Of a stretch of 64,000 nt of DNA, positions 3,301 through 44,797 are shown piece after piece (the first letter of the stretch is position 1; each line of letters begins with the position of its first letter). Origin of the DNA: a virus; IMG/VR virus record IMGVR_UViG_3300020477_001932, positions 1 through 64,000 of that record; one strand, 5' to 3'. The notes beneath the pieces were generated by a model. The model worked only from the letters and a program-made list of their open reading frames with translations. It had not been told where the DNA came from and made no database searches. Made by a program: the position numbers and the translations under genes.

Positions 3301-3301
3301 T

Positions 3302-4915
3302 ATGGCAGACGATACCTATTTAGGGAATAACCTTCTAAAAGGTTTAGGCGTAAAACATGATTTTACTAAAGAAGAAATTGAGGAGTATATTAAATGTGCT
3401 AATGACCCAATTTATTTTTTAGAAAGTTATGTGAAGATCGTACACGTTGACGAAGGCCTTGTGCCTTTTAAGATGTATGATTTTCAGAAAAAACTAGTTG
3501 ACGCTATAACTGAAAACAGAAATGTTATCGTAAAAACTGGTAGGCAGGTTGGTAAAACAACTACAACTATCGGTTGGTTATTACATTATATTCTTTTTAA
3601 CGAAGAAAAAATTGTTGGCATTCTAGCGAATAAAGCCATCACAGCTCGGGAAATTCTTAGTCGGGTTCAAACATCCTACCAACATCTTCCAAAGTTTTTA
3701 CAGCAAGGATTAAGAGAATGGAATAAGGGTTCTATGGAACTTGAGAATGGAAGTAAAGTTATAGCTTCTTCCACATCTTCAAGTGCAATTCGTGGATTTT
3801 CATTTTCTTGTATTCTACTTGATGAATTTGCTCACGTTCAAAGGCATATTGCAAATGAGTTTATTCGTTCAGTTTATCCTACGATTTCGTCTGGTAAAGA
3901 AACAAAAGTTATTATAGTATCTACTCCAAATGGATTTAACTTGTTTTACAAGTTTTGGAATGATGCTGAAAATGGAAATAATACATTCTATCCATTTAGA
4001 GTACATTGGTCAAATGTGCCAGGCCGTGATGAAGAATGGCATAAAAGAATTGTATCGACAATCGGTGAAGATTCTTTCAGGCAAGAGTATGAAGCTGAGT
4101 TTTTGGGGTCAACTAACACACTTGTTTCGACCGAGAAGCTCCAAGAGCTATCATATAATGACCCAATATTCTCAAAAGATGGTTTAGATGTTCACGAAGA
4201 GCCAAATCCTGAGCGTACTTATACCATAACAGTAGATGTTGCAAGGGGTCAAGGAAACGATTATTCGGCGTTTTCGGTGTTTGATATAACAGAAATTCCA
4301 TATAAAGTAGTAGCAAAGTACAGAAATAACACGGTGGCACCCCTACACTTCCCAAATATTATAAATACTATTGGAAAGAGATATAATTATGCGTATATTT
4401 TAGTAGAAATAAATGACATTGGTTCACAGGTTGCAGATGTTTTACACCATGATTTAGAGTATGAGCATTTATATTCAACATCATGGTATGGAAGGCATGG
4501 TCAACAGCTAAGTAGTGGAGCAAGAAAAGAATCAGCTTTTGGTGTTAGAACAACAAAGACAATGAAAAAGATTGGTTGTTCTAATCTGAAATCTTTGATT
4601 GAAGAAAATAAGCTCTTGTTCAATGACTACGATATTATATCAGAATTAACAACATTTATTTCTACGGGTGAGTCCTACTCAGGCGAAGAAGGAACACATG
4701 ATGATTTAGTTATAACATTGGTGTTGTTTGCATGGCTAATAGATCAACAGTATTTTAAAGATTTAAGCCAACAAAATATAAGAGATAATTTATACCAAAA
4801 CCAATTAAACCAGTTAGAAGATTTAACGACACCATTTGGAGTTATTGATAATGGTTTGAATCAAGATGAATTTGAAATTGATTCTGATGGGACAGTTTGG
4901 AAAACAGTTCTTTAA
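3302..4915 (+). CDS. 17: Large terminase subunit gp17 (packaging ATPase and nuclease)
   Basis: The 537-residue protein has the two-domain terminase layout. The N-terminal ATPase has Walker A at about residues 79-88 (TGRQVGKTTT) and Walker B at about 171-179 (ILLDEFAHV), followed by the coupling motif VSTPNG. The C-terminal RNase H-fold nuclease has its first acidic residue in TITVDVARG near 313 and a late DD in THDDLV. It drives DNA into proheads at the portal and cuts the concatemer. The length is close to that of other marine T4-like gp17 and there is no intein or split. Confidence 0.97.
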   Translation: MADDTYLGNNLLKGLGVKHDFTKEEIEEYIKCANDPIYFLESYVKIVHVDEGLVPFKMYDFQKKLVDAITENRNVIVKTGRQVGKTTTTIGWLLHYILFNEEKIVGILANKAITAREILSRVQTSYQHLPKFLQQGLREWNKGSMELENGSKVIASSTSSSAIRGFSFSCILLDEFAHVQRHIANEFIRSVYPTISSGKETKVIIVSTPNGFNLFYKFWNDAENGNNTFYPFRVHWSNVPGRDEEWHKRIVSTIGEDSFRQEYEAEFLGSTNTLVSTEKLQELSYNDPIFSKDGLDVHEEPNPERTYTITVDVARGQGNDYSAFSVFDITEIPYKVVAKYRNNTVAPLHFPNIINTIGKRYNYAYILVEINDIGSQVADVLHHDLEYEHLYSTSWYGRHGQQLSSGARKESAFGVRTTKTMKKIGCSNLKSLIEENKLLFNDYDIISELTTFISTGESYSGEEGTHDDLVITLVLFAWLIDQQYFKDLSQQNIRDNLYQNQLNQLEDLTTPFGVIDNGLNQDEFEIDSDGTVWKTVL

Positions 4916-4951
4916 AAATAGATTATTGAGCAATTGATGAAAATATATTAA

Positions 4952-4959
4952 TATAAAAA
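4952..4959 (+). promoter_or_regulatory. Candidate late promoter before gene 18
   Basis: TATAAAAA lies about 30 bases upstream of the gene 18 start in the short gap after gene 17. It differs at one position from the TATAAATA found before other genes here, so it is a weaker candidate for gp55-directed late transcription. Confidence 0.35.
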
Positions 4960-4987
4960 ATGTAATTAATTGTAAAGGAGATAACAA

Positions 4988-6760
4988 ATGCCATTTCAAG
5001 TAAGTCCGGGCGTAAACGTCAGCGAGATTGATTTAACTAATGTCGTGCCTAATGTATCAACTAGTATTGGTGCATATGCAGGTCAATTTCAATGGGGTCC
5101 CGTAGAACAAAGAACATTAGTAGTTTCAGAAAACGATTTAGTAGAAAGATTTTTTAAACCAGACGAAAATACATTTGAAGATTTTTGGTCTTGTGCAAAC
5201 TATCTTGCATACTCTGATAATTTGCTCGTAGTAAGAATGGTTGAAGCCGATGCACGCAACGCCGTTGTTGGTGATGTTGATGCAGGTACAGCTACTCAAG
5301 TTAAAAATGATGATGATTGGGAAAGTGATAAAGGTGCTTTTTCCGATCAATTATTCATTGCTAAATATCCCGGATCTTTAGGTAACAGCCTAAAATGTAT
5401 TGTTATTGACTCTGCTGGATGGGCCAATGCAGTAGCACAGGGAGCAGGAGCAACAGCAGATCAAAAATTATTTCTAGCCAACTTTAATGGCGCACCCGGT
5501 ACATCACAAGACGTAATCAAAGCTAATGGTGGTGCTACAACTGGTAATGACGAAATGCACGTTTTAGTAATTGACGAAGATGGTCAGTTTACTGGTGAAG
5601 CAGGTGAAATTCTTGAAGTTCACGCATACGTTAGTAAAGCAAGAGATGCTTTGAAATTTGATGGTTCAAGTAACTACATTGAGAATGTTCTACGAAACGA
5701 ATCACGTTATGTTTGGTTGGGAGCTGTAGGACAATTAACAGCATCATCAACTGATGCAGGTAGTGAAGTTGATGCTGGTGCATTAAAAGCTGGAGCAGTA
5801 TTCAAATCATTGAATAGTGCAACACCAGCAGAAATGACACCCGGTGGGTCAATGACTGGTGGAGTAGTTGGTACAAATATTTCAGCCGGTACTAGAGAAT
5901 TAGGATATAACTTTTATTCTGATCCTGAAGTTGTTGATGTAACATTAGTTATTGGTGGACCTATTTTACCTCTAAATGGTAAAAATGTTATCGACAATGT
6001 TGTTGCAGCTAGAAAAGATTGTGTTGGCTTCTTTTCACCAGCAAAAACAAGTGTTGTAGGACAGGCTGATAGAGCAGTTATCGTTAATTCTATTACAACT
6101 GATAATACAGCATTGGGTTCATCTAGTTATGCAGTTATGGATAGTGCATGGAAATATCAATATGATCGCTATCGAGATAACTTCATCTATACACCAATGA
6201 ATGCTGATATTGCTGGTCTTTGTGCAAGAACAGACTTCACAAATGATCCTTGGTTTTCACCCGCTGGTCTTAACAGAGGAACAATTAAAAATGTTGTACG
6301 ACCAAGTTGGGAATGTCGAAAAGCAGAACGTGATACTCTATATAAAATTGGAACAAATCCGGTTGTAACTCAACCAGCTGTAGGTACTGTTTTGTTTGGT
6401 GATAAAACCATGCAAGTAGTTCCAAGTGCTTTTGATCGAATCAATGTACGAAGATTGTTTATCGTTCTTGAAAAAGCAATTGCTACTGCAGCTAAAGCAT
6501 TCATGTTTGAGTTTAATGATGAGTTTACAAGAGCTCAATTTGTTAGTGTTGTTACACCTTTCTTGAGTGAAGTAGAAGGCCGAAGAGGTATTACAGACTT
6601 TAAAGTAGTTTGTGATAGCACAAATAATACTGGCCAAATTATTGATACGAATCAATTTGTTGGCGATATTTATATTAAGCCAAATCGTTCTATCAACTTC
6701 ATTCAGTTGAATTTTATTGCCGCAAGAACTGATGTAGAATTTTCAGAAATCGGTGGTTAA
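4988..6760 (+). CDS. 18: Contractile tail sheath protein gp18
   Basis: The N-terminus MPFQVSPGVNVSEIDLTNVV is the hallmark of T4-like sheath proteins, and the C-terminal region (INVRRLFIVLEKAIATAAKAFMFE through RGITDFKVVCD) is the conserved sheath core. The 590-residue length is within the marine T4-like range. The protein polymerises around the gp19 tube and contracts during infection. A strong AAAGGAG site lies just before the ATG, suiting a major structural protein. Confidence 0.96.
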   Translation: MPFQVSPGVNVSEIDLTNVVPNVSTSIGAYAGQFQWGPVEQRTLVVSENDLVERFFKPDENTFEDFWSCANYLAYSDNLLVVRMVEADARNAVVGDVDAGTATQVKNDDDWESDKGAFSDQLFIAKYPGSLGNSLKCIVIDSAGWANAVAQGAGATADQKLFLANFNGAPGTSQDVIKANGGATTGNDEMHVLVIDEDGQFTGEAGEILEVHAYVSKARDALKFDGSSNYIENVLRNESRYVWLGAVGQLTASSTDAGSEVDAGALKAGAVFKSLNSATPAEMTPGGSMTGGVVGTNISAGTRELGYNFYSDPEVVDVTLVIGGPILPLNGKNVIDNVVAARKDCVGFFSPAKTSVVGQADRAVIVNSITTDNTALGSSSYAVMDSAWKYQYDRYRDNFIYTPMNADIAGLCARTDFTNDPWFSPAGLNRGTIKNVVRPSWECRKAERDTLYKIGTNPVVTQPAVGTVLFGDKTMQVVPSAFDRINVRRLFIVLEKAIATAAKAFMFEFNDEFTRAQFVSVVTPFLSEVEGRRGITDFKVVCDSTNNTGQIIDTNQFVGDIYIKPNRSINFIQLNFIAARTDVEFSEIGG

Positions 6761-15519: not shown

Positions 15520-15945
15520 ATGAAAGTTAATATGATTAATAAAAGTGAAAATCCATTACCAAAGTATGCAAAAGAAGGTGATGCTGGTATGGATATTTGT
15601 GCAGCTGAAGATGTTGCTATACCAGCATTTTGTTGGGAGGCAATTTTAACTGGAATATATATGCAACTTCCAGAAGGCTATGAATGTCAAATAAGATCAA
15701 GGTCTGGATTAGCTGCAAAACATGGTATTCAAGTTTTAAATAGTCCTGGCACTATTGATTCTGGTTATCGTGGTGAAGTTAAAGTTATATTAAAAAATAA
15801 TGCATACGCACCTTATGATATTAAAAAAGGTGATAGAATTGCACAGATGGTTTTTGCACCTGTAACAACTGCATCTATTACAGAAGTTGCTGAACTTTCT
15901 GATTCAGAACGTGGTGAAGGTGGATTGGGGAGTACAGGAAAATGA
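15520..15945 (+). CDS. dut: dUTP diphosphatase
   Basis: A 141-residue trimeric-type dUTPase with all five motifs in order: GDAGMDICA (I), RSRSGLAAKHGI (III region II-III), NSPGTIDSGYRGEV (III), GDRIAQMVF (IV) and the Gly-rich C-terminal RGEGGLGSTGK (V). It hydrolyses dUTP to dUMP and pyrophosphate, keeping uracil out of DNA and supplying dUMP to the ThyX encoded at 59812. The stop overlaps the gene 55 start by four bases. Confidence 0.96.
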   Translation: MKVNMINKSENPLPKYAKEGDAGMDICAAEDVAIPAFCWEAILTGIYMQLPEGYECQIRSRSGLAAKHGIQVLNSPGTIDSGYRGEVKVILKNNAYAPYDIKKGDRIAQMVFAPVTTASITEVAELSDSERGEGGLGSTGK

Positions 15946-16466
15946 CTGATAAGAAAAAACATTATGTTGACAATGAGAAGTTTTTTACTGAAATGAAGAA
16001 ATGGAAGCAAAGAGTACATGATGCTCGTGAGGTGGAAGATGATGATCCACCTACAACTGAATATATGGGTGAGTGTTTTCTAAAGATTTGTGAACATCTA
16101 GCCATGCGTCCAAATTTTATTAATTACACATTCCGTGATGATTTGATTTCTGATGGAATCGAGAATTGTTTGCTTTATGCTCACAATTTCAATCCAGAAA
16201 AATCGAAGAATCCTTTTTCATATTTTACACAAATTATTCATCATGCTTACGTTAGGAGGATAGTAAAAGAAAGAAAATTAATGCACGTTAAATATCTGCT
16301 CGTTGAACGGGAAGGTATATTAGAAGAAATAAGTAAATCTGGTGAAAGCCATAAAAAAATGACTAAAGAATGGGTGGACTATTTAAGAACCCATGAAAAA
16401 TATGCTGTAAATCCAACAAAGAAGAAAAAGAAGAAGAAGGCTGATTTAGAGTTGTATTATAGATAA
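15942..16466 (+). CDS. 55: Late-transcription sigma factor gp55
   Basis: A 174-residue protein of the T4 gp55 family. FRDDLISDGIENCLLYAHNFNPEKSKNPFSYFTQIIHHAYVRRI is the sigma region 2-like core that recognises TATAAATA. It replaces host sigma on RNA polymerase and requires the sliding clamp for activated late transcription. The basic run KKKKKKK near the end is followed by ADLELYYR, a hydrophobic C-terminal tail in the place where T4 gp55 contacts the clamp. Confidence 0.93.
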   Translation: MTDKKKHYVDNEKFFTEMKKWKQRVHDAREVEDDDPPTTEYMGECFLKICEHLAMRPNFINYTFRDDLISDGIENCLLYAHNFNPEKSKNPFSYFTQIIHHAYVRRIVKERKLMHVKYLLVEREGILEEISKSGESHKKMTKEWVDYLRTHEKYAVNPTKKKKKKKADLELYYR

Positions 16467-28611: not shown

Positions 28612-29172
28612 ATGCCAAGAGAAATGTTGAAGTTGAGAAAAGGTGATTCGGCCATTATGATTAAAGCAGATGGTTCTATTCAAATGGCAGGGTTGAATGA
28701 TAGACCTTTGATAGATGAAAAGGGTGCAATTTCACCTTGTATTTTGTTTGCAGCTGCATGGGCAAAAAAAGATCAGAAGCTTTTAATGGATTTAGTAGAA
28801 AATTTTAAGACTTGTGTTAAAGAAGGATATTTCGGTCCTGAAGCGCAAAGTGATTATAAAGCAATGGAAGCAGCTGCAGCGTCAGCAACAACTACACAGG
28901 CTGCTTCTGGTACTGTAACAAAAGAAGCATGGAATAAACATAAAGCAGAAGAAGAACGTCTTAAAGCACTTGCTGCACAAGGACAGGATCCCCAAGTAAA
29001 ACGCCAGATGGATGCTCTTAAAGCTGGTGCAAGAAAAACTACAACAAAACCATTTGAAGGACATTTAATAAAAGATACAGCTTCTGGAGCTGTAACTGTA
29101 GGTACTGCAATTATTGAAGAACAACCTAAACCCTTAACAAGTGAAGAAGCTGTAACAAGGAGAGATTCGTAA
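28612..29172 (+). CDS. Hypothetical protein with ADGS domain, upstream of the clamp gene
   Basis: A 186-residue protein. The first 65 residues (MLKLRKGDSAIMIKADGSIQ, then an Ala/Leu helix ILFAAAWAKKDQKLL) resemble the N-terminal domain of the protein at 38825 (KLTMDDSALVVRADGSVELI, then LVLALASALENEDLY). The rest is Ala/Lys/Thr-rich and probably disordered. Both copies lie just upstream of sliding-clamp system genes (45 here, 62 there). Function unknown. Confidence 0.7.
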   Translation: MPREMLKLRKGDSAIMIKADGSIQMAGLNDRPLIDEKGAISPCILFAAAWAKKDQKLLMDLVENFKTCVKEGYFGPEAQSDYKAMEAAAASATTTQAASGTVTKEAWNKHKAEEERLKALAAQGQDPQVKRQMDALKAGARKTTTKPFEGHLIKDTASGAVTVGTAIIEEQPKPLTSEEAVTRRDS

Positions 29173-29843
29173 TGAAAATAAGTAAAAGTACAATGGATGT
29201 ATTAAAAAATTATTCAGAGATTAATCAGTCTATTGTTATCAAAGAAGGTAATGAGATTAAAACAATTTCTGCATTGAAAAACATTCTTTCCAGAGCAGTT
29301 GTGAAAGAGAATTTTCCAAAAGATTTTGCAATTTATGATCTTCCAACTTTCATCGGCTTTCATTCTACTATGTCGGAGCCGGACTTTGAGTTTGGTGATG
29401 ATTCCATGACATTAAAAGATGTAAACGGTAAAGGCAAATACTTTTATGCAGAACCTTCATTAGTTGTTACTCCACCTGAAAAGGGTGTTACTATGCCTGA
29501 TTCAGATATTCGATTTGAATTAAAAAATGATGTTCTTGAAGATATAATCAAGAAAGCAAATGTTCTTAAGCTTGCAGATATTGGATTAAAGAGTTGTCCT
29601 AAATCTCAAGGCCTTTATCTATATGCTACTAATAAAAGTAATGATACTTCAAATGATTATTCTGTTAAAGTAGGTGATGGTGCTACGAAGAAATTTAACA
29701 TTATTTTCAAGAAAGATAATTTAAAGATTATCCCAGGAGATTATGATGTTACTATTGCAAATGGTATTTCTCATTTTAAAAATAAAGAGCTTGATTTGGA
29801 ATACTGGATTGCATTAGAAGCTAGTAGTGATTATGGAGAATAA
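29172..29843 (+). CDS. 45: Sliding clamp gp45
   Basis: A 223-residue protein matching T4 gp45 (228 residues): MKISKSTMDVLKNYSEINQS at the start and ISHFKNKELDLEYWIALEASSDY at the end. It forms the trimeric ring that tethers gp43 to DNA and activates late transcription through gp55. The ATG overlaps the previous stop (TAATG). The clamp loader large subunit gene follows after two small genes. Confidence 0.94.
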   Translation: MKISKSTMDVLKNYSEINQSIVIKEGNEIKTISALKNILSRAVVKENFPKDFAIYDLPTFIGFHSTMSEPDFEFGDDSMTLKDVNGKGKYFYAEPSLVVTPPEKGVTMPDSDIRFELKNDVLEDIIKKANVLKLADIGLKSCPKSQGLYLYATNKSNDTSNDYSVKVGDGATKKFNIIFKKDNLKIIPGDYDVTIANGISHFKNKELDLEYWIALEASSDYGE

Positions 29844-30651: not shown

Positions 30652-30666
30652 ATAGAAAGGAATGTG

Positions 30667-31608
30667 ATGAAAGATAATATATTATGGGTAGAAAAGTATC
30701 GACCCGATATGATTGACGATTGTATTCTGCCTAAATCAACAAAAGATATTTTCCAGTCTATTGTTGATTCGGGGGAGTTGCCGAATCTCCTATTATTCGG
30801 CACATCGGGCGTCGGAAAGACTACGGTTGCAAAGGCGCTATGTAATCAACTAAAATGTGATTGGTTGATGATAAATGGCAGCGATGAAGGGCGTATGATA
30901 GATACGCTGAGAACTACTATAAGTAGTTATGCCTCAACCGTGAGTCTTTCCGGCGGTAAGAAAGTTATTATAATAGATGAAGCAGACTATATGAACAAGG
31001 ATTCTGTCCAACCAGCTATGCGTGGTTTGATAGAAGAATTTTCAAATAACTGTCGTTTTATATTTACTTGTAATTATAAAAATAGAATTATTCCAGCTTT
31101 ACATTCACGGTGTTCTGTTGTAGATTTTAGAATACCAAAAGAAGAAAAACCAGAGTTAGCACAAAAGTTTTCAGCAGTAGCATTAAGCATATTAGATGGT
31201 GAAGAAATAAAATATAAACCAGATATTATTGCACAACTTGTCGTCAAGTTTTTTCCAGATTTTAGAAGGGTTTTGAATGAGCTCCAGAAGCATTCAATCG
31301 GTGGAAATATTGATGCGAGTGTTTTGACCTCATCATCCAATGAAACATTTGATGAGCTGATGAATTATTTGAAGCATAAAGATTTTACTAAGATGAGGAA
31401 ATGGGTAGCAGAAAATATTGACAATGACCATGTGAGATTATACCGTCAAGTCTATGACTCCCTGTTTACAAAATTAGAAAAAAGTACAATACCTGGGGCT
31501 GTACTAACGATAGCCGATTATTCGTATAAGTCAGCTTTTGTTGCAGACCAGGAAGTTAATATGGTTGCGTGTTTAACTGAATTAATGATGAATTGTGAGT
31601 TTGTGTGA
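30667..31608 (+). CDS. 44: Clamp loader large subunit gp44
   Basis: A 313-residue AAA+ protein: WVEKYRPDMIDDCILP at the start, Walker A FGTSGVGKTT at about 44-53, Walker B VIIIDEADYM, sensor 1 FIFTCNYKNRII and arginine finger LHSRCSVVDF, followed by a helical collar domain. With gp62 it loads gp45 on primer-template ends. The ATG at 30667 follows AAAGGA; a GTG three bases before is possible. The length matches T4 gp44 (319). Confidence 0.96.
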   Translation: MKDNILWVEKYRPDMIDDCILPKSTKDIFQSIVDSGELPNLLLFGTSGVGKTTVAKALCNQLKCDWLMINGSDEGRMIDTLRTTISSYASTVSLSGGKKVIIIDEADYMNKDSVQPAMRGLIEEFSNNCRFIFTCNYKNRIIPALHSRCSVVDFRIPKEEKPELAQKFSAVALSILDGEEIKYKPDIIAQLVVKFFPDFRRVLNELQKHSIGGNIDASVLTSSSNETFDELMNYLKHKDFTKMRKWVAENIDNDHVRLYRQVYDSLFTKLEKSTIPGAVLTIADYSYKSAFVADQEVNMVACLTELMMNCEFV

Positions 31609-33756: not shown

Positions 33757-34686
33757 ATGAATAAATTAAGATACAGCGAAATGTTTTATTCCCTCCAAGG
33801 AGAAGGAAGGTACGTTGGTGTGCCTTCCGTTTTCCTTCGGCTGTTTGGATGTAATTTTGAATGTCGTGGCTTCGGTCAAGATAGAGATAAATCCAAATGG
33901 TTACCTGAAGATCAAATGCCTCATAATACAGATTATCCAGATGTAAAATCTATCGTAGATTTACCAGTTCCTCAACTTGGTTGTGATAGCTCTTTTTCTT
34001 GGGGAAAGAAATGGGGCCACCTAGCCAATTATGAGGATATTGATACTATCGTTAAAAAAATGAATGAGTTTACAAATTGGTATGGACAAAAAGAAAGGAT
34101 GGAGGGGGACATATCAGCTGCACTTAAACAAGATGATGCTGTTCATTTAGTTATTACTGGAGGAGAGCCGTTGTTAAAAGGATTTCAGTCAGGTGTATTT
34201 GAATTAATGACACATCCAGATTTATTAACACGTTATGTTACCATTGAGACAAATGGTACGCAAATATTTTCTCCATATGATTATTTTGCAGGTCATAATT
34301 ATATGTTTCCAGATCATCATAGAAAGTTTGGTGTAAATAAAAATGCAGGTATAACATGGTCTGTTTCACCAAAGCTTTCTAATAGTGGTGAAAGTTGGAG
34401 TGAAGCAATTAGACCAGAAGCACTTGCATCATATAATGCTTGGCCTTATTCTTATTTGTATCTCAAGTTTGTTATTAGGGATGAATATGATTTGGTAGAA
34501 GTAGAACAAGCTATTCGTGAATATGATAAAGCTGGTGTTAATATATGTGCAGTTTATTTGATGCCTGAGGGTGCAGTAGATCATCAAATGGAAGAATTAA
34601 AAATAGCAAAGATTGCATTAAAACATGGATATAAGTATAGTCCTAGACTACATTTAAATCTTTTTGGAAATGAGTGGGGGACATAA
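33757..34686 (+). CDS. queE: 7-carboxy-7-deazaguanine synthase QueE (radical SAM)
   Basis: A 309-residue protein: SEMFYSLQGEGRYVGVPSVF is the QueE N-terminus, TGGEPLLKGF the SAM GGE motif, and TIETNGT follows. It converts 6-carboxytetrahydropterin to 7-carboxy-7-deazaguanine. The cluster Cys are unusual: Cys32 and Cys36 (GCNFECRGFG) are in place but the third position of CX3CX2C is Phe39; the next Cys is Cys76 in LGCDSSFSW, giving CX3CX39C. Related long-loop QueE forms exist, so I read this as an active variant. First gene of the preQ0 module. Confidence 0.9.
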   Translation: MNKLRYSEMFYSLQGEGRYVGVPSVFLRLFGCNFECRGFGQDRDKSKWLPEDQMPHNTDYPDVKSIVDLPVPQLGCDSSFSWGKKWGHLANYEDIDTIVKKMNEFTNWYGQKERMEGDISAALKQDDAVHLVITGGEPLLKGFQSGVFELMTHPDLLTRYVTIETNGTQIFSPYDYFAGHNYMFPDHHRKFGVNKNAGITWSVSPKLSNSGESWSEAIRPEALASYNAWPYSYLYLKFVIRDEYDLVEVEQAIREYDKAGVNICAVYLMPEGAVDHQMEELKIAKIALKHGYKYSPRLHLNLFGNEWGT

Positions 34687-35144
34687 TGTCACAAGCATTA
34701 AAGAAAGGCAGAAGTGGACAAAGAGGTATTAAGAATGCTGATAGAGTAAATGATACTGAAATGTTTTGTTCTGAGTATAAAGATGAAAATGGAAAGCAGG
34801 TTCGTCTTGGAAAAATCAGGCTTGCACATGAAATCAATGATGGTTTAAAACATATTGCACATGATTTAAATACTACTAAAGCAGAACTAGTAAGAACATT
34901 ATTTGTTGATTTTATACAGGATTATAAAGAAGCTAAAGCTACTGGTGCTATACAAAAGTTTACACCAGCACAAACTATTGAAAGATATTTAACCAGTAGA
35001 TATGAGTTCTTCCAATTATTCAATGAACTTAAAAAACAAACAAAATATTTGGAGGATTCTAAATCACCAGAAGTTAAAATTTTATCAAGACAAATTAGTA
35101 TAATAGCAGAAATGTTAAACCTTACAAATAAGAATGTGATATGA
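34686..35144 (+). CDS. Putative ribbon-helix-helix protein in the deazaguanine module
   Basis: A 152-residue basic protein. Residues about 45-80 (IRLAHEINDGLKHIAHDLNTTKAELVRTLFVDFI) follow the ribbon-helix-helix pattern: a strand, a helix, a short turn with Thr-Lys-Ala, and a second helix. The rest is helical. The ATG overlaps the queE stop by one base (TAATG). It may regulate the module or bind the DNA substrate; inference only. Confidence 0.6.
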   Translation: MSQALKKGRSGQRGIKNADRVNDTEMFCSEYKDENGKQVRLGKIRLAHEINDGLKHIAHDLNTTKAELVRTLFVDFIQDYKEAKATGAIQKFTPAQTIERYLTSRYEFFQLFNELKKQTKYLEDSKSPEVKILSRQISIIAEMLNLTNKNVI

Positions 35145-35608
35145 ATAAATATAATTATTATTATGACCAGTATTATAAAGATATAACAGAGATTGTTGAA
35201 AGACACGAAGCAACACCAAATTTGCACGTTGTCGGTGTTTATCGTGGTTCATTACCAATAGCTACTCATTTAAGCAATGCTCTTGAGTGTCCTATGAGTA
35301 TTATTAAATTTCAGTCGCGAGACGGTTCTGATGATAAAGCAGAATGGATGTTAAATTTAACAGATGATGAAAGCTTAAGGCCTGAAAAGTCTAAGCAGTT
35401 TTTTCCAACATTATTGGTTGTGGATGATGTTTATGATACTGGAAAAACTTTTAGGGCTATTAAAGAATTACCAGAGCTTAAACAAAATCCAGATTATCAT
35501 TGTATTGCATTGTTTGGTAATGAAAATAATGATGGTGTAACTTATATCCATGAGCAACTATATAGATGGATAGTGTATCCTTGGGAAAGAGTAGGAGGTG
35601 CTATGTGA
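35141..35608 (+). CDS. Phosphoribosyltransferase-like protein
   Basis: A 155-residue type I phosphoribosyltransferase: VVGVYRGSLPIATHLS near the start and the PRPP-binding loop LLVVDDVYDTGKTF at about 91-104. The size and motif resemble xanthine/guanine or hypoxanthine phosphoribosyltransferases. It lies between queE and queD with four-base overlaps on both sides, suggesting a role in purine or deazapurine handling. The substrate cannot be told from sequence. Confidence 0.8.
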   Translation: MNKYNYYYDQYYKDITEIVERHEATPNLHVVGVYRGSLPIATHLSNALECPMSIIKFQSRDGSDDKAEWMLNLTDDESLRPEKSKQFFPTLLVVDDVYDTGKTFRAIKELPELKQNPDYHCIALFGNENNDGVTYIHEQLYRWIVYPWERVGGAM

Positions 35609-36048
35609 AATATGAGAGTACGAAAACGTATGGTAATGATAGAGGTTTGAGTTGTTGTTTTCGTCAATGGAAAGCAACTAGTCATTGTAAATATTTACAT
35701 GGTTATAGTTTAGGTTTTAGATTTACATTTGAAACAGATGAATTAGATGGTAGAAATTGGGTTTATGATTTTGGTAATTGTAAATGGATTAAAGTGTTTC
35801 TTGAACAAACATTTGACCATAAGCTTTTAATAGATAAAAATGATCCTGATATAGAACATATATATAAAATACATGATGAAAATATGGCACAAGTTCTTAC
35901 AATGGATGGTGTTGGTTGTGAGAAGTTTGCTGAGTATGTTTATAATTATGTTTTACGACAAGTTCAAGAAGAAACAGGAGGACGAGTTAATTTGAAAAGT
36001 GTTGAGTGTTTTGAACATGGTTCAAATAGTGCAATATATTATGGTTAG
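35605..36048 (+). CDS. queD: 6-carboxytetrahydropterin synthase QueD
   Basis: A 147-residue protein of the PTPS/QueD family variant with LSCCFRQWKATSHCKYLHGYSL, VYDFGNCKWIK, FDHKLLID and VECFEHGSNSA. It makes 6-carboxytetrahydropterin from dihydroneopterin triphosphate, the FolE product, and feeds QueE. The zinc motif reads HGY rather than the usual HGH, as in a known divergent QueD branch. The start is GTG at 35605 behind AGGAGG, overlapping the previous stop by four bases. Confidence 0.86.
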   Translation: MKYESTKTYGNDRGLSCCFRQWKATSHCKYLHGYSLGFRFTFETDELDGRNWVYDFGNCKWIKVFLEQTFDHKLLIDKNDPDIEHIYKIHDENMAQVLTMDGVGCEKFAEYVYNYVLRQVQEETGGRVNLKSVECFEHGSNSAIYYG

Positions 36049-36065
36049 TGAGAGGAGCTTATATA

Positions 36066-36734
36066 ATGAAAATTTCAGAAAAGATAAAAAATGCATTAGA
36101 CAAGGGTTACTTAGCTAATGATACAATATATGATGTTATTAATGATGAAGATAGAATAGAGTTAATAGAAGAAGTTAAAGAGGCATTTCAAGGTGTATTG
36201 GATGCTTTAGTTATAGATACAAAGAATGACCACAATACACAAGAGACAGCAAAACGTGTAGCAAAAATGTTTGTCAATGAAATATTCCGTGGCAGATATT
36301 ATCCCCCGCCTTGTGTTACTGCATTTCCAAATGCAAAGCAGTATGACCAGATTTATATGTCTGGCCCCATAACAATCAATTCAACGTGTGCGCACCATTT
36401 CCAAGCTATTGCTGGAAAAGCATATGTTGGAATCTTTCCGGGAAAGAAAGTTATTGGATTATCCAAGTTTAATCGTATGGTTGATTGGGTTGCATCCAGA
36501 CCACAAATTCAAGAAGAAATGACAGAACAAATAGCAGATATGATACAAGAAGAAACTGAAGCAAAGGGTGTAGCTGTTATTGTTAAAGCAGAACATTTTT
36601 GTATGACGGCAAGAGGTGTTAAAGAACATGAAAGTGATATGGTAACATCTGTTGTGCGTGGTATTTTTCGTGATGAACCAGCAACAAAAGCTGAGTTCTT
36701 TTCTTTGTTAAGTAATATGAAAGGGATGCAATAA
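36066..36734 (+). CDS. folE: GTP cyclohydrolase I FolE
   Basis: A 222-residue protein with the complete active site: STCAHHFQAIAGKAYVGIFPG, GLSKFNRMVDW, RPQIQEEMTEQIADMI, and AEHFCMTARGVKEHES, including the zinc-binding Cys and His residues. It converts GTP to dihydroneopterin triphosphate, the first step of the deazaguanine pathway. The ATG at 36066 is preceded by GAGAGGAG. The stop overlaps the queC start by one base. Confidence 0.95.
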   Translation: MKISEKIKNALDKGYLANDTIYDVINDEDRIELIEEVKEAFQGVLDALVIDTKNDHNTQETAKRVAKMFVNEIFRGRYYPPPCVTAFPNAKQYDQIYMSGPITINSTCAHHFQAIAGKAYVGIFPGKKVIGLSKFNRMVDWVASRPQIQEEMTEQIADMIQEETEAKGVAVIVKAEHFCMTARGVKEHESDMVTSVVRGIFRDEPATKAEFFSLLSNMKGMQ

Positions 36735-37516
36735 TGGTAAACATGGTAACTAGTGGTAAACAAGAAGCTACTGGTAAATCTGTTTTATTATATTCTGGTG
36801 GCATGGATAGTTTGATGTTTGACTATTTAATGAAGCCTGATGTATTATTGTATATTCCGACTGGTAGTGAATACGAAATGATAGAAAGCAGTAAAATACG
36901 TTTACTTGGTAAATATGGTTATTTGGATGAAGATAAATTAGTTGTTTTACCTCGTGTTTTAAATTTAAGTAAGTTTGAACGTGATGATGCAATCGTTCCA
37001 AATCGTAACGCACATTTAATGTTGTTAGCTTCTATGTATGGTGAAGATTTGATTCTTGGAAGTGTTCAAGGTGATAGATCATTCGATAAGGATCCTATTT
37101 TTTATCAGAAAATGACAGACTTGTTAAATCATATGTGGAAAGAACAGCATTGGACTGAGGAACGTGTTTTTAAAGTTAGCTCTCCATATAAAGATAAAAC
37201 AAAGACGGAGATTGTTAAAGAGTATCTGGAAAAGGGTGGTAGTGCAGACGCATTACTACTTTCATGGAGTTGTTATGATCCACAATCAAGATATTTGTTA
37301 GACCCCGAAAGGGCTTGTGGATGGTGTAAACCATGTTTTCGTAAATGGATTTCACTTCATAATAACAATATAAGTATTCCAGAAGATTATTATGCAAACA
37401 ATCCATGGGAAGCACCATGGCTTGAAAAGTTAATTCCTTCTGTACTTGAAAAGAATTATCGAGGAAAAGAAGATTATGATTGGTGTGATGCCTTAACAAG
37501 TAAAGGAGTTTTATGA
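36734..37516 (+). CDS. queC: 7-cyano-7-deazaguanine (preQ0) synthase QueC
   Basis: A 260-residue PP-loop ATPase: VLLYSGGMDSLMF near residues 17-29, PNRNAHLM, and the zinc site SWSCYDPQ with RACGWCKPCFRKW near the end. It turns 7-carboxy-7-deazaguanine into preQ0 with ATP and ammonia. No amidotransferase domain is fused, so the product should be free preQ0. It follows folE and overlaps the transglycosylase gene by four bases. Confidence 0.94.
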   Translation: MVNMVTSGKQEATGKSVLLYSGGMDSLMFDYLMKPDVLLYIPTGSEYEMIESSKIRLLGKYGYLDEDKLVVLPRVLNLSKFERDDAIVPNRNAHLMLLASMYGEDLILGSVQGDRSFDKDPIFYQKMTDLLNHMWKEQHWTEERVFKVSSPYKDKTKTEIVKEYLEKGGSADALLLSWSCYDPQSRYLLDPERACGWCKPCFRKWISLHNNNISIPEDYYANNPWEAPWLEKLIPSVLEKNYRGKEDYDWCDALTSKGVL

Positions 37517-38763
37517 AAGACGCGATTTACATTCCAGCATATAGTGATGGTTTAATGAATTTACTGGAAAAAGATGATGCTGATGCAAGTGAAAAATATC
37601 AGTCAAGTTTTGATAAAAAGAAATCATTAAGAATATATAAGAAAGATAGTGATTCGTATTTTAAGAATTTCTTTATGTTAATCTCAGCTGGTACACAACA
37701 TAATAAAAAAGATTTTAGAAAAACTATTCAAGCAGAAGATGCAAAGATATTTGTTGATAGTGGAGGATACCAGTTAGCACATTCCACAGTTAATCATAAA
37801 AAGTACACAGATGATATAGCTTTGAAATGGTCTGAAGAAAATGGTGATATATTTCCAATTTTAGATAGGCCAACATTTACGCTTGGAATGATGAGAGATG
37901 GAAAACCAGTATCGCCATATAAAGATTATCAAGAATGTTTGGATTTGTCAGTAAATTCTGCAAAACATTATTCAGAAAATCGTACACGTTCAGATGCAAA
38001 AATCTTAAATGTTATACAGGGCCAAACGATACCACAAGTTAAGAAGTGGTATGATGAAATAAAGAAGTATGAGTTTGAGGGTTGGGCATATGGTGGTACA
38101 AGAGGCAATTTGGGTCGTATTGTTCCAGCAATATTGTTTTTAATTAATAACAAAGAATTTGATAGACCTAAGTGTGATTTATTTCATATATTTGGTGTAA
38201 CATCAAATGAAAGTATGATTTATTTTCAGTATCTTCAAATGTTACTAAATAAACATAATATTGATATGCAGATAACATATGATTCAACATACTGGAATCG
38301 TACTGTTGTTTTTGGTGGTTACTTTACAGAGGCTAGATATATTACTGGAACTGGTATGGCTTCTATGAATTGGCCTAATACAATTAGTTATGAAAATCTT
38401 TCAAAAGATTTTAAATTACCTTGTCATTGTCCTATATGTAAAGATTGCACAGATGTTTATTCTTTATTTAATCAATATAAGACAAATAAAGAGGGCAAAG
38501 AAGTGGTAGTTTTTAGAGATTTTAATATGACAATGGCATTTCATAATTTATATTTACAGTTAGAATATCTTGAAAATATTACAAGAATTTTAAAATCAGG
38601 CATGAAAGAGATTTATTTAGAGTTTTTTCCAAAGAAAATTTATGATAATTTAATCTTTTTAGAAGGAGTTTTTAATAATATGTCAAAAGATTGGGAAGGA
38701 GAGCTAAATAAACGATTTCTAAAGGCTGAGGATCTTAATACATTAGAGGGTTTTTTTGGATGA
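37513..38763 (+). CDS. dpdA: DNA 7-deazaguanine transglycosylase DpdA (TGT-like)
   Basis: A 416-residue TGT-fold protein: VDSGGYQLA at 81-89 (catalytic Asp82), LNVIQGQT near 165-172, EGWAYGGTRGN at 189-199, a second Asp in TYDSTYW (Asp257), and the zinc site CHCPICKDC at 304-312. Its sequence is far from host tRNA enzymes and it ends a complete preQ0 pathway, as with phage DpdA, which exchanges guanine in DNA for preQ0 or a derivative. The C-terminus LNTLEGFFG closely matches the DNA polymerase C-terminus SSLESFFG. No QueF, ArcS or other later enzyme is nearby. Confidence 0.85.
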   Translation: MKDAIYIPAYSDGLMNLLEKDDADASEKYQSSFDKKKSLRIYKKDSDSYFKNFFMLISAGTQHNKKDFRKTIQAEDAKIFVDSGGYQLAHSTVNHKKYTDDIALKWSEENGDIFPILDRPTFTLGMMRDGKPVSPYKDYQECLDLSVNSAKHYSENRTRSDAKILNVIQGQTIPQVKKWYDEIKKYEFEGWAYGGTRGNLGRIVPAILFLINNKEFDRPKCDLFHIFGVTSNESMIYFQYLQMLLNKHNIDMQITYDSTYWNRTVVFGGYFTEARYITGTGMASMNWPNTISYENLSKDFKLPCHCPICKDCTDVYSLFNQYKTNKEGKEVVVFRDFNMTMAFHNLYLQLEYLENITRILKSGMKEIYLEFFPKKIYDNLIFLEGVFNNMSKDWEGELNKRFLKAEDLNTLEGFFG

Positions 38764-38824: not shown

Positions 38825-39622
38825 ATGATGGAAGAAGAAAACAAACCAAAACGACCTAGTGATTGGGCTAAAGAAGAAAAGGCTAAACAACCAGAAAAAA
38901 AACCATTAGAAGAACAAAAGTTTGATAAAAATGGTAAGCTTTTTGTTAAACTTACTATGGATGATAGTGCATTGGTAGTTCGTGCTGACGGTTCTGTTGA
39001 GTTAATTAGCCATGACTTAGAAAACTCAGATGATGGTTATGTTGGTGATGTTGAAGATTTAAATAAAACTTTTTCTTTGGTGTTAGCATTAGCTTCTGCA
39101 TTAGAGAATGAAGATTTGTATAATCGTATATTCCATAACCTTAATATGACATTGATGAAAAAATGGGATAATATGCCTGATGATATTAAACAACAAATTG
39201 TAAAAAAGAGAAATAAAATTGATAACAGTCGAAATTCTCAAGAAGAGCTAGAAAAGAAGAAACGTGTTGAGGAATTTCGTAAACGAATGAACAAATATAA
39301 AGAAACTTTCTTAGATGATTTGGATGCAGAAAAAGAAAGACTGAAACAAGATATGCGTGATGAAGAAGATTTCCATAAACGGTATGGTAGAGATTTTGGT
39401 GCTGAACAAGAATATCCAGATCACTTAATGCCAGAAGATATTGATCCTTTTATGAATGGCCCAGGTGGAGATATGGAATCCAGACCAAGAAAAAAGATAA
39501 AGAAAAAGAAAGTTTCTTTGGATAGTCTAAGAGGTGTTGATTGGGACCCATACCATGAAACATTAAAAACTAAAAAGGGAAAATGGCGTTTAGATTATCC
39601 CCCTGATGATGAGGAGGAATAA
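38825..39622 (+). CDS. Hypothetical protein with ADGS domain, upstream of gene 62
   Basis: A 265-residue, highly charged protein. Residues about 28-105 match the domain at 28612: KLFVKLTMDDSALVVRADGS, then a Leu/Ala helix FSLVLALASALENEDLY. The middle is a Lys/Glu-rich coiled coil (KKKRVEEFRKRMNKYKETF), and the C-terminal part is Pro/Asp/Lys-rich. The upstream in-frame extension to 38756 covers the late promoter and is rejected. One base overlaps gene 62. Function unknown; two paralogues next to clamp genes suggest a link to clamp-dependent processes. Confidence 0.72.
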   Translation: MMEEENKPKRPSDWAKEEKAKQPEKKPLEEQKFDKNGKLFVKLTMDDSALVVRADGSVELISHDLENSDDGYVGDVEDLNKTFSLVLALASALENEDLYNRIFHNLNMTLMKKWDNMPDDIKQQIVKKRNKIDNSRNSQEELEKKKRVEEFRKRMNKYKETFLDDLDAEKERLKQDMRDEEDFHKRYGRDFGAEQEYPDHLMPEDIDPFMNGPGGDMESRPRKKIKKKKVSLDSLRGVDWDPYHETLKTKKGKWRLDYPPDDEEE

Positions 39623-39999
39623 TGAATCCGTTTGAGTATGCTAATGAGTTGATAACAAAAGATAAGTATGATGAAGAAGTACCAGATAGAAAAGATTATA
39701 AACCATTTCTGATTAATCGTACTTTATCATATCATAATGATTTAATACATTATGTCAATTATTTGAATCAATATCCAGATGTAAATGATAAACTGCATTA
39801 TGATTTTCTTAATTTGTCCATAGCAAAGAAAAAGAGACCTAAGAAATGGTGGGTCAAGGGCAAGAAGTATGAGAACATGGAAGTTATAAAAGAGTATTAT
39901 AAGTACAGTACAGATAAGGCAATTACAGCCTTGTCAGTTTTATCTGATAAAGATATTAAAAACATCAAAAATAAGCTCTTCAAGGGCGGAGGAAAGTAA
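39622..39999 (+). CDS. 62: Clamp loader small subunit gp62
   Basis: A 125-residue protein with MNPFEYANELI, PFLINRTLSYHNDLIHYVNYLN, YDFLNLSIAKKKRPKKWW and IKEYYKYSTDKAITALSVL, the conserved pattern of gp62 in marine T4-like phages, which is shorter than T4 gp62 (187). It partners with gp44 to load the clamp. It is separated from gene 44 by the nuclease and deazaguanine block, whereas in T4 44 and 62 are adjacent. Confidence 0.85.
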   Translation: MNPFEYANELITKDKYDEEVPDRKDYKPFLINRTLSYHNDLIHYVNYLNQYPDVNDKLHYDFLNLSIAKKKRPKKWWVKGKKYENMEVIKEYYKYSTDKAITALSVLSDKDIKNIKNKLFKGGGK

Positions 40000-41088: not shown

Positions 41089-43602
41089 ATGAAATTCTAT
41101 ACCTACGCAAGTCAAGTATTCAATAAAATCTATATTCGTGAAATAGATAATAAGGGTGAAGAATATTCTGAAACATTTGATTTCAAACCAACTCTTTATG
41201 TTCCAGCCCCAAAAGAAAAAGCAAATTTTAAAACATTAGATAATCGGCCTTTGGCTGATATAAAGTTTCCTTCAATAAAAGAGTGTAAAGATTTTATTGA
41301 CCAATATTCAGGTGTTACCAATTATAAGATTTTTGGTAATACAAATTATGTATTTCAGTTTTTATCTGAGCAATACGCTGATGATGTTCAATGGGATAAA
41401 TCCAAAATATTAATATATACTCTTGACATTGAGGTTGCTTCAGATGATGGCTTTCCAGATATTCGTTTGGCCAATGCACCAATAACAGCAATAACAGTTC
41501 ATAACAGCATTAACGATACATATTATGTTTTTGGTACTGGTGATTATATACCAGATAAAAATATTAAGTATTTTCGTTTAGATAATGAAGAAGAAATGAT
41601 GCAAGTTTTCTTGGATTGGTGGAAAGATAATCCGCCTCATATCATTACTGGATGGAATTGTAAATTCTTTGATATTCCATACATTGTCAATCGAATGAAA
41701 TATCTTGATATTGAAGCCAAGTATCTTTCACCAATTAAAAGAGTAGTCGATAAGAATGTAGTTATTGCAGGCCGTGATAATATGTATTATACGATTATCG
41801 GCATATCTACTCTGGATTATATTGATTTATATAAAAAATATACTTACAAGGCAAGAGAATCATATCGTCTGGATTATATAGGCCAAGTGGAGCTTGGCAT
41901 GGGAAAAATTACAGATGATGAAATGCAAGGGTATGATTTATATAAAACAGATTATCAAAAGTTTATAGAATATAATATAAAAGACGTTGAGATTGTTAAA
42001 AAACTAGACGATAAGATGAAATTATTGGATTTGGTCATAACTATAGCCTATGAATCCAAGATTAATTTTGAAGATGTATTTTCACCAGTTAAGACCTGGG
42101 AAACTATTATTTACAATTTCTTGAGAAAACAAAATATAGCTGTTCCACAGGAACGGCATAAGGGAGAAACAAAAGGTGGCATTGAGGGTGGATATGTAAA
42201 AGAACCTCATGTTGGTTTACATAAATGGGTAGTATCATTTGACTTAAATTCTCTTTATCCACATTTAATTCAGCAATACAATATCAGTCCAGAAATGATT
42301 TCAGATGATGAAGTTCTCAAGATAAAATATAAAGATGGAGTCAAAGGCTTACTGAATAAGCAATTAGATACAAAATATTTAAAAGAACATCAAATGACGT
42401 TGACTCCAAATGGTCAACATTTCTCAACAAAACGTCAAGGATTTCTTCCAAAGTTAATGAAATCTATGTATGATGAAAGAGTTATTTACAAAAAGAAAAT
42501 GCTTGAAGAAGAGCAGAGATTGGAGGATGGAAATTATAAAAATAAAGAAGAAGTTGTAAATAATATAGCAAAATTTAATAATGTCCAGATGGCTAAAAAG
42601 ATACTCTTAAATAGCGCCTATGGTGCATTGGCCAATCAGTATTTCTTGTATTATTCTCCTGAACAGGCAGAAGCCGTTACTATGTCTGGTCAGTTGTCGA
42701 TTAGATGGATCGAAAAGTATATAAATAAATTCATCAACGATTTACTCAAAACAGGAGATAGAGATTATGTTATCGCATCGGATACAGATAGCATTTATAT
42801 CACGTTTGATAAGTTGGTTAATGAAGTGTGGGGAGAGGGAGCTGAAACTGAGAAAGTTATCATGTTCTTGGATAAAATGTGCAAAGATAGGATTGAACCA
42901 TATATTGATGAGTGTTATAAAGTTCTTCATTCGTATGTAAATTCATACGAGCAGAAGATGGTGATGAAAAGAGAGTCGATAGCTGACAAAGGTATCTGGA
43001 CAGCTAAGAAACGATACATTTTAAATGTATATGATTCTGAGGGTGTAAGATACAAAGAACCTAAATTAAAGATAATGGGTATTGAGAGTGTCAGAAGTTC
43101 TACCCCTCAATGGTGTCGGGAGAACATACAATCGTTGATAAAGACAATTATCAATACAGATGAGCAGACAGTAATAAAAACTATTGAAGATTATAGAGAA
43201 ACTTTCAAGACTTTGAAGTTTAGTGATATTGCATTTCCAAGATCAGTCAAAGGCTTGAGTAAATATAAATCTTCAAAAGATATTTACATTAAAGCTACTC
43301 CAATTCATGTTCGGGGTACTTTATTGTATAACCATCATTTAAAGGAGAAAAACTTAGTAAAGAAATATCAATTAATCCGTGATGGAGAAAAGATTAAGTT
43401 TGCATATCTGAAAGAGCCAAACATACTCGGTGAGAATGTGATTGCTATTGCAACTGTCTTGCCGAGTGAGTTTGGTTTAGAGAAATATATAGATTATGAC
43501 TTACAATTCGATAAATCGTTTCTGCAGCCAATTAAGAATATATTGGATGTTATTGGATGGAAGTCAGAGAATATGAGTTCGTTAGAATCATTTTTTGGGT
43601 GA
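41089..43602 (+). CDS. 43: DNA polymerase gp43 (family B)
   Basis: An 837-residue family B polymerase. Exonuclease motifs: TLDIEVASDDGFPD (I), ITGWNCKFFDIPY (II), YNIKDVEIV (III). Polymerase motifs: SFDLNSLYPHLIQQYNISPE (A), KKILLNSAYGAL (B), IASDTDSIYI (C). Slightly shorter than T4 gp43 (898). The C-terminus SSLESFFG fits the clamp-binding peptide known for T4-like polymerases. Preceded by its own promoter with almost no leader; no intein or split. Confidence 0.97.
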   Translation: MKFYTYASQVFNKIYIREIDNKGEEYSETFDFKPTLYVPAPKEKANFKTLDNRPLADIKFPSIKECKDFIDQYSGVTNYKIFGNTNYVFQFLSEQYADDVQWDKSKILIYTLDIEVASDDGFPDIRLANAPITAITVHNSINDTYYVFGTGDYIPDKNIKYFRLDNEEEMMQVFLDWWKDNPPHIITGWNCKFFDIPYIVNRMKYLDIEAKYLSPIKRVVDKNVVIAGRDNMYYTIIGISTLDYIDLYKKYTYKARESYRLDYIGQVELGMGKITDDEMQGYDLYKTDYQKFIEYNIKDVEIVKKLDDKMKLLDLVITIAYESKINFEDVFSPVKTWETIIYNFLRKQNIAVPQERHKGETKGGIEGGYVKEPHVGLHKWVVSFDLNSLYPHLIQQYNISPEMISDDEVLKIKYKDGVKGLLNKQLDTKYLKEHQMTLTPNGQHFSTKRQGFLPKLMKSMYDERVIYKKKMLEEEQRLEDGNYKNKEEVVNNIAKFNNVQMAKKILLNSAYGALANQYFLYYSPEQAEAVTMSGQLSIRWIEKYINKFINDLLKTGDRDYVIASDTDSIYITFDKLVNEVWGEGAETEKVIMFLDKMCKDRIEPYIDECYKVLHSYVNSYEQKMVMKRESIADKGIWTAKKRYILNVYDSEGVRYKEPKLKIMGIESVRSSTPQWCRENIQSLIKTIINTDEQTVIKTIEDYRETFKTLKFSDIAFPRSVKGLSKYKSSKDIYIKATPIHVRGTLLYNHHLKEKNLVKKYQLIRDGEKIKFAYLKEPNILGENVIAIATVLPSEFGLEKYIDYDLQFDKSFLQPIKNILDVIGWKSENMSSLESFFG

Positions 43603-43606
43603 AGTT

Positions 43607-44797
43607 GTGAAGATTTATATAGAAGATGAGTTTATTAATCTTGTAAGAAAAGATATAAATCCATTGTCTTTTAAAGATTTTGTTCAAACAAAACAAATAA
43701 GCAATTTGTGGGATAAATTAGAATTTGATGATATTAGGATAAAGTCTTTAAAAACAAAAGAAGAATTTTATAAATGGTGTTATGATTTCATTCATAATGA
43801 CGAGCCACTTAAAGTATATTTTAGAAAAAGATTATCATATAATACACAATCAGTACATGAAGAAGTACCAATACAAAATATAAAAAATATAAAAGATTCT
43901 ATAATACATATATCGAATAATTCTAGGTATATAAAAAATATAAATTTACCAAGTATTTTAGATTGTAGAGCATTTGATGGTAAAAGTATAAAAAATATAT
44001 ATAAAGATGCACTTGAACTTGGTAAGATAGATAGATGTATAACAATGCCATCTGTTTTTAAAGATTCTTCTAATGGAAATTATGATACGTTTGTGGTTAC
44101 AATGAAAACTATTTCTGGGCAAATGTCTATTTTTAGTCCAGTAATTTATAATATGTTATTAAATAAGGTAAATGGATATTTAGAAAAAAAAGATAAATGT
44201 AAAATACTTATTCCATCTGCTTCGTGGGGTAGTCCTATTATAGCTACTTTGAATGAAGAAAAATATTCAGATATTCATATAGTTGATGTTCAACAAGCAG
44301 TTTTAAATGTTTGTGAGGATATTTTTAATGATTATGTAGATAAGCCTTTTCGTAAGTTATCTGGCATTAAACCCCCATACAATTTAAAAACATTTTGTGT
44401 ACCATCTGAAAATATGACTGAGGTTATTGATAATAATTATGATACAGTATTCTTTTGTCCGCCTTATTATGATTTAGAGCTTTATGGTGGTAGTGATTTA
44501 CAATCAACTACTTTATATCAAACGTATGAAGAATGGTTAGATTTATATTGGAGAAAAACAGTTAATGAATGTTATAAAGTTTTAAATACTGGTGGAATGT
44601 TTTGTTTTGTGATGGGTAGGCTTTGTAGAGGATATGAAATGGGTAATGATATGAAAAAAATTGCAGAAGAAAAATTTAATTTAATTGATGAAATTAAAAT
44701 ATTGCCCCCTAATGAATCAACTAGGGATAGCAATAAAATTGAAAAGTATGAAATATGTTACATTATGAAAAAGGAGATAGATTATGGCAGTAAATAA
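43607..44797 (+). CDS. SAM-dependent DNA methyltransferase candidate
   Basis: About 396 residues. The catalytic loop FFCPPYYDLELYGG corresponds to the (D/N/S)PPY motif of N6-adenine or N4-cytosine methyltransferases, with Cys in the first position. Residues ILIPSASWGSPIIATL and DIHIVDVQQAVL form the SAM-binding strand-turn and acidic loop, and FCFVMGRL follows as a core strand. The N-terminal third is unrelated to known domains. The start is uncertain: GTG at 43607 or TTG at 43595 overlapping gene 43. It probably adds a second modification to phage DNA. Confidence 0.75.
   Translation: MKIYIEDEFINLVRKDINPLSFKDFVQTKQISNLWDKLEFDDIRIKSLKTKEEFYKWCYDFIHNDEPLKVYFRKRLSYNTQSVHEEVPIQNIKNIKDSIIHISNNSRYIKNINLPSILDCRAFDGKSIKNIYKDALELGKIDRCITMPSVFKDSSNGNYDTFVVTMKTISGQMSIFSPVIYNMLLNKVNGYLEKKDKCKILIPSASWGSPIIATLNEEKYSDIHIVDVQQAVLNVCEDIFNDYVDKPFRKLSGIKPPYNLKTFCVPSENMTEVIDNNYDTVFFCPPYYDLELYGGSDLQSTTLYQTYEEWLDLYWRKTVNECYKVLNTGGMFCFVMGRLCRGYEMGNDMKKIAEEKFNLIDEIKILPPNESTRDSNKIEKYEICYIMKKEIDYGSK

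Follow-up and report, generated by a model that had tools for sequence, protein, structure and literature searches.

A putative sliding-clamp-binding motif at the C-terminus of a phage DpdA DNA transglycosylase

Genes and features of the window

The window, a 64 kb stretch of a 74256-base IMG/VR virus record (IMGVR_UViG_3300020477_001932), was found to carry T4-type replication genes together with a preQ0 gene cluster (Table 1). The order of genes in this cluster is QueE-like, a phosphoribosyltransferase-fold ORF, QueD-like, FolE and QueC-like, with dpdA as the last gene. The phosphoribosyltransferase-fold product might recycle the guanine freed by base exchange, and a gene for a protein with this domain was also seen near QueE in PA5oct-like phages. 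An ORF encoding 156 aa of no recognised family (34674–35144) lies between the QueE-like and phosphoribosyltransferase-fold genes, and an ORF of similar size occupies the same place in many relatives. A methyltransferase-like ORF (43595–44797) overlaps the end of the gp43 gene, and other genes are found at this site in close relatives. In one relative (L008; coordinates 3207–6489), dpdA is followed by an ORF of ~447 aa and then directly by gp45; the ~447-aa product contains MCSIVGWT and was judged by eye to be glutamine-amidotransferase-like. None of the genes of the window was recognised as gp33.

Table 1. Coordinates of genes and sequence features in the window, with the evidence for each
Feature	Coordinates	Strand	Evidence
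gp55 late sigma factor	15942–16466	+	phrog_234 8.6e-54; PDB 7d7c gp55 7e-15
gp55 tail ADLELYYR	16440–16463	+	compared with tails of relatives
gp45 sliding clamp, proposed docking partner	29172–29843	+	Pfam 5.5e-10; phmmer T4 gp45 4.8e-17; AF2 model TM 0.87 to 6drt/1czd/1b77
gp44 clamp loader large subunit	30664–31608	+	Pfam Gp44_lid 1.7e-9
QueE-like, preQ0 pathway	33757–34686	+	NCBIfam QueE models up to 9e-13, below their cut-offs
Phosphoribosyltransferase-fold protein within preQ0 cluster	35141–35608	+	Pfam Pribosyltran 3.2e-12
QueD-like	35566–36048	+	NCBIfam QueD 2.6e-9, below cut-off
FolE GTP cyclohydrolase I	36048–36734	+	NCBIfam FolE 1.8e-55
QueC-like preQ0 synthase	36734–37516	+	Pfam QueC 3.7e-12
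dpdA, TGT-type DNA transglycosylase, 416 aa	37513–38763	+	Pfam TGT 3.6e-7; model; invariant residues
Variable linker KAEDLN, from last ordered helix to motif	38722–38739	+	length and sequence vary by lineage; model residues 406–416 pLDDT <50
Putative clamp-binding motif TLEGFFG, DpdA C-terminus	38740–38760	+	profile test; synonymous codon changes with motif kept
gp62 clamp loader small subunit, two genes downstream of dpdA	39622–39999	+	Pfam Phage_clamp_A 4.8e-9
gp43 family B DNA polymerase, 837 aa	41089–43602	+	phrog_262 E=0; 1clq etc.
gp43 C-terminal clamp-interacting peptide SSLESFFG, putative	43576–43599	+	conserved in relatives; equivalent of T4 SLDFLF (PMC12746103)

The DpdA product matched the Pfam TGT model with 30 bits, above the cut-off of 26.3, and scored below the NCBIfam TGT superfamily model's own cut-off. 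Its AF2 model (pLDDT 85) was compared with the PDB using Foldseek, and the best matches were 2pot and 4ghr (TGT) and 7ui4 (DpdA), with E values of 5e-7 to 1e-5 and TM scores of about 0.4–0.5. The DSGG, LDRP, YDS and C-x-C-x2-C...H residues were invariant or nearly so in an alignment of 27 homologues, and D82, D118, D257, C304, C306, C309 and H344 were invariant in alignment A2. By analogy to TGT, the aspartates of DSGG, LDRP and YDS are presumably catalytic and the C-x-C-x2-C...H residues zinc ligands. The genome context of QueE, QueD, FolE and QueC makes insertion of 7-deazaguanine into DNA the putative role of this DpdA. The last 11 residues of the model (406–416) have a pLDDT below 50, and a C-terminus predicted to be disordered in this way is as expected of a linear motif.

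The match of the window gp45 to T4 gp45 extends end to end, and on this match and the fold of its model (Table 1) gp45 is judged to be a true T4-type clamp. In RB69 the ligand pocket of the clamp is formed by Y39, I107, F109, W199 and V217 (PMC3012046), and the positions in the window gp45 that correspond to these, as mapped solely by sequence alignment, are hydrophobic (I/L, V, M, I/A and W). Clamp binding by T4 gp43 depends on its final six residues and is abolished by their deletion, and SLDFLF occupies the hydrophobic pocket of gp45 (PMC12746103). The gp43, gp55 and gp33 tails are interchangeable, and the linker that bears the gp55 motif is divergent and variable in length, though the same review cautions that the likeness of these tails is not universal among T4 relatives (PMC2988020).

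C-terminal tails of DpdA, gp43 and gp55

The initial annotation had noted that DpdA and gp43 end alike, and the ORF translations confirmed the ends as LNTLEGFFG (38734–38760, followed by the stop codon) and SSLESFFG, respectively. It had noticed the tail on these two proteins only, but gp55 ends in ADLELYYR, a tail of the same kind, and T4 gp55 attaches to gp45 by its C-terminus. The gp55 proteins of relatives carry NLELYF, SLEMYFA, RLEIFMK, NLEKFM and the like, and by its tail sequence gp55 is a third candidate clamp ligand in the window phage. The gp43 tail was retained in nearly every relative with at least 67% identity. T4 gp43 ends in SLDFLFG and T4 gp55 in SLDFLYEAND, and the DpdA tail matches T4 gp43 SLDFLF at each position of [ST]-L-[DE]-x-[LF]-F.

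A five-residue tail profile was built from the tails of 14 gp43 and 16 gp55 proteins of relatives, with no DpdA included. When the 194 ORFs of the 74 kb record were scored, DpdA (10.2 bits) ranked third after gp43 and gp55 themselves, whose own tails are two of those in the training set, and the next ORF reached 5.2 bits. Only 0.07% of internal 9-mers scored at or above the 10.2 bits of DpdA. Among 3649 ORFs of the loci covered by this test, scores of at least 7 bits were obtained for 97 gp43, 21 gp55, 7 DpdA and 18 other ORFs, many of the last being antisense or repeated copies. C-termini resembling that of gp43 were also seen at L101:6210–6554 (PPPATLEQFFE), L270:11557–12141 (STFQNLFAYDN) and L224:11869–12522 (NLEGFFV), and these proteins are candidate clamp clients by their C-terminal sequences.

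Among related DpdAs, the tail recurs in the nearest lineages, but it is degraded at 75–85% identity and mostly absent below that. LE[GS]FF is retained in the window lineage (with L001), L002–L004, L019 and L045, where the preceding linker varies in both sequence and length (KAEDLN, TEGA, ESDA, KHGA). Between these lineages the codons of the motif differ synonymously, with one G/S replacement in addition, and such changes in codons while the peptide is kept are the pattern of purifying selection on the DpdA tail. The tail is kept in L003, where gp45 is just 55% identical to that of the window.

At 75–85% identity the tail is DLLKFM or SSLA[GS]F[IM], and the L015 and L016 DpdAs (75% identity) end in PAELSFK. 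Below 70% identity the DpdA ends are hydrophobic and unrelated, with the exception of L045 (69%). T4-like DpdAs at 45–65% identity end in GLGI, SLF, VFDL, ALDV or ILNSFGK, whereas gp43 there still ends in SLESFF, indicating that the tether either is not obligatory or has changed so far in sequence that it is no longer recognisable. That these other T4-like DpdAs have lost the motif suggests that a tether is dispensable for the pathway. The T4-like control, Vibrio phage nt-1 DpdA2, has no LExFF tail and ends in AEYPDFKS, and T4-type replication genes are present in that phage. No tail motif was found in the TGT proteins of GR7B, Peetri and Ep032, which have lysine-rich ends. A scan of genome contigs for relatives found none.

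The APSVFDL tails common to DpdA clades C and D were considered as a case of convergence, which was rejected; the DNA is identical, indicating recombination, and these tails are therefore not evidence of selection. An exchange of the dpdA 3' end was observed between clades whose proteins are about 45% identical (L037 and L046 versus L023–L044), in which the DNA of the last codons is identical.

DpdA and clamp genes in jumbo and 9g-like phages

The closest annotated relatives of the window DpdA (about 25% identity) include those of Pseudomonas PA5oct-like jumbo phages. The DpdA-like gene of PAC2 comes after those for gp43 and a clamp, and gp43 ends in HFDSLFGW while the C-terminal region of DpdA contains SFNSLFDVD. 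In Vibrio phage 2.275.O, gp43 ends in NNTDLFDW and DpdA in NNNDLFGW; a gene for a gp45-family clamp separates the two genes, and several codons differ in the stretch that they have in common. A scan with these jumbo-phage proteins yielded over 580 relatives, and 80 loci from among them were retained. A clamp gene was located no more than 1.5 kb upstream of DpdA in 75 of the 77 loci with a full DpdA, and within 100 bases in 37. In Phosso, the ORF upstream of DpdA was considered as a clamp gene and rejected, as it encodes a virion protein.

After dereplication of the jumbo-phage DpdAs at 80% (n=51), a motif like the gp43 tail (F-x-x-L-F-like) was found in the last 70 residues of 37. Shuffled sequences gave a mean of 2.1 and at most 7, and the motif occurred in none of 305 internal windows and in 3 of 406 other ORFs. 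Around one in four of the dereplicated DpdAs scored under the motif threshold. The motif mostly lies 30–40 residues before the end of an acidic segment rather than at the very end, and it is at the DpdA end or a few residues from it in L251, L253, L281, L310 and 2.275.O.

The best six-residue match between the DpdA end and the gp43 end of the same phage had a mean score of 20.1 over 59 phages, higher than swapped partners (18.0; highest of 5000 swaps, 19.6) and shuffled ends (12.7), and the FF or LF class of DpdA and gp43 agreed in 50 of 52 phages (6 FF/FF and 44 LF/LF; Fisher 2e-6), though the phages in both tests are not independent and the five jumbo-phage FF cases form one clade, so the p-values are overstated. 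In L251 and L253, gp43 ends in LQAFFEF and MQQFFEF, and DpdA in LNEFFEF and MNEFFEF, respectively. With the window included, FF arose separately at least twice, and few independent events underlie the covariation.

In phages 9g, CAjan, MiCath, Vibrio K251 and Rhizobium N17, dpdA precedes the clamp and polymerase genes, either directly or with one to two small genes between, and the DpdAs end in LQDLFDE, VMELF, VQELF, TQGLF and EQRLF, respectively. No match was found between the DpdA and polymerase ends of these five phages. The [QM]-x-L-F end is similar to the bacterial beta-clamp motif, although the spacing is not identical. The DpdAs of the 9g-like loci (L328, L329, L330, L331 and L247) end in or near [QM]-x-L-F. 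Together with the adjacent clamp gene, the [QM]-x-L-F sequence is treated as a lead only to a possible clamp link.

Interpretation and comparison with known systems

It is likely, at a probability of about 0.83, that the C-terminus of the window DpdA is a clamp-binding motif that tethers the enzyme to the sliding clamp, and it is from this reading that we infer binding and fork-coupled base exchange. Docking of DpdA on gp45, as proposed in the initial annotation, is well supported at the sequence level by the match to T4 SLDFLF, the disordered end and the purifying selection on the tail, and above all by the distant DpdAs of unrelated phages, which carry the tail of their own polymerase and are encoded beside a clamp gene. 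However, docking does not stand as a universal rule, as the motif is missing from T4-like relatives at 45–65% identity and from nt-1 DpdA2, although T4-type replication genes remain.

The tail would be a motif of the same kind as the clamp-interacting peptide of the polymerase, carried on a short flexible linker, and could insert into the hydrophobic pocket that T4 gp43, gp55 and ligase use, which lies on the gp45 ring at its C face. This would tether DpdA to a clamp encircling DNA and may give it processive or replication-coupled access to DNA, with guanine exchanged for a 7-deazaguanine on new DNA in the wake of the fork or on stretches tracked by clamps that stay behind. DNA modification in the window phage is thus probably tethered to the replication machinery.

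That the tail binds some other partner, such as gp43, a single-strand binding protein or an enzyme of the preQ0 pathway, or is a C-terminal degradation signal, is improbable. Other DpdA clades do retain different hydrophobic ends, e.g. [FL]D[LV], that are unlike the gp43 tail, but the window tail resembles those by which gp43 and gp55 bind the clamp, the likeness follows the polymerase tail of the same phage, and the adjacent clamp gene points to the clamp. A shade less probable still is chance, in which a short hydrophobic end with no partner drifted into LExFF. The motif is short, and T4-like relatives more distant than about 75% identity have lost it, but DpdA has, by a wide margin, the best C-terminus in the record outside the training set, the motif is retained through synonymous codon changes across lineages, and the parallel matches in jumbo phages far exceed shuffles and swaps. 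Capture of the tail from the gp43 3' end by recombination, leaving a neutral remnant, is very improbable. The 3' ends of dpdA do recombine (the identical 3' DNA in clades C and D), but the tail codons of dpdA and gp43 differ at about half of positions, a comparison that gives DNA-level capture no support, no clear DNA-level identity between dpdA and gp43 ends was seen in relatives, and the motif stays while the linker diverges.

For phage DpdAs as a class, the balance tips modestly towards their being sliding-clamp clients, with T4-like, jumbo and perhaps 9g-like phages having separately gained a motif that mimics the ligands of their own clamp, and with insertion of 7-deazaguanine coupled to replication or to clamp tracking. 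Replacement of guanine is partial; in phage 9g at most 27% of dG is exchanged (PMC6884629). A clamp tether would be a simple answer to how DpdA finds guanines and why only part of the guanine is replaced, modification being directed to clamp-bearing DNA, and a DNA base-exchange enzyme would then join the clients of the clamp. No link between DpdA and a sliding clamp or PCNA was found in the open-access literature searched. Clamp motifs and DpdA are each known already; relative to that literature, what is new is a DpdA with the putative clamp motif of its polymerase, seen in several groups of phages and encoded next to the clamp gene.

The 9g-type DpdA and Vibrio nt-1 DpdA2, both 7-deazaguanine-inserting enzymes, belong, like the window DpdA, to the TGT superfamily and are encoded with a preQ0 gene cluster, and in 9g dpdA adjoins the clamp and polymerase genes, but both differ from the window DpdA in having no LExFF tail. 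The gp43 peptide of T4 and RB69 and the gp55 and gp33 motifs share with the window tail a C-terminal position, hydrophobic plus acidic character, a variable linker, the pattern [ST]-L-[DE]-x-[LF]-F and gp45 as partner (putative in the window). They are carried on a polymerase or a transcription factor, whereas the window motif is on a DNA base transglycosylase.

The nearest precedent is T4 alpha-glucosyltransferase. This enzyme, which likewise modifies DNA and is encoded by a phage, was pulled down with gp45 and co-purifies with the sliding clamp (PMC13216743, citing Sommer et al. 2004), a property that is putative for the window DpdA. This precedent cuts both ways, and in a 2026 study the glucosylation pattern of T4 in vivo was mostly set by expression and not by clamp binding (PMC13216743). 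T4 alpha-glucosyltransferase also differs from DpdA in its chemistry, and its last 14 residues (SSFCFKEQFDIITK) include no such tail. In eukaryotes, DNMT1 is a PIP-box enzyme that acts on new DNA at PCNA. There, as proposed for DpdA, a short motif ties DNA modification to a trimeric clamp, but the DNMT1 reaction is methylation on PCNA, whereas that in the window phage would be base exchange on a phage clamp.
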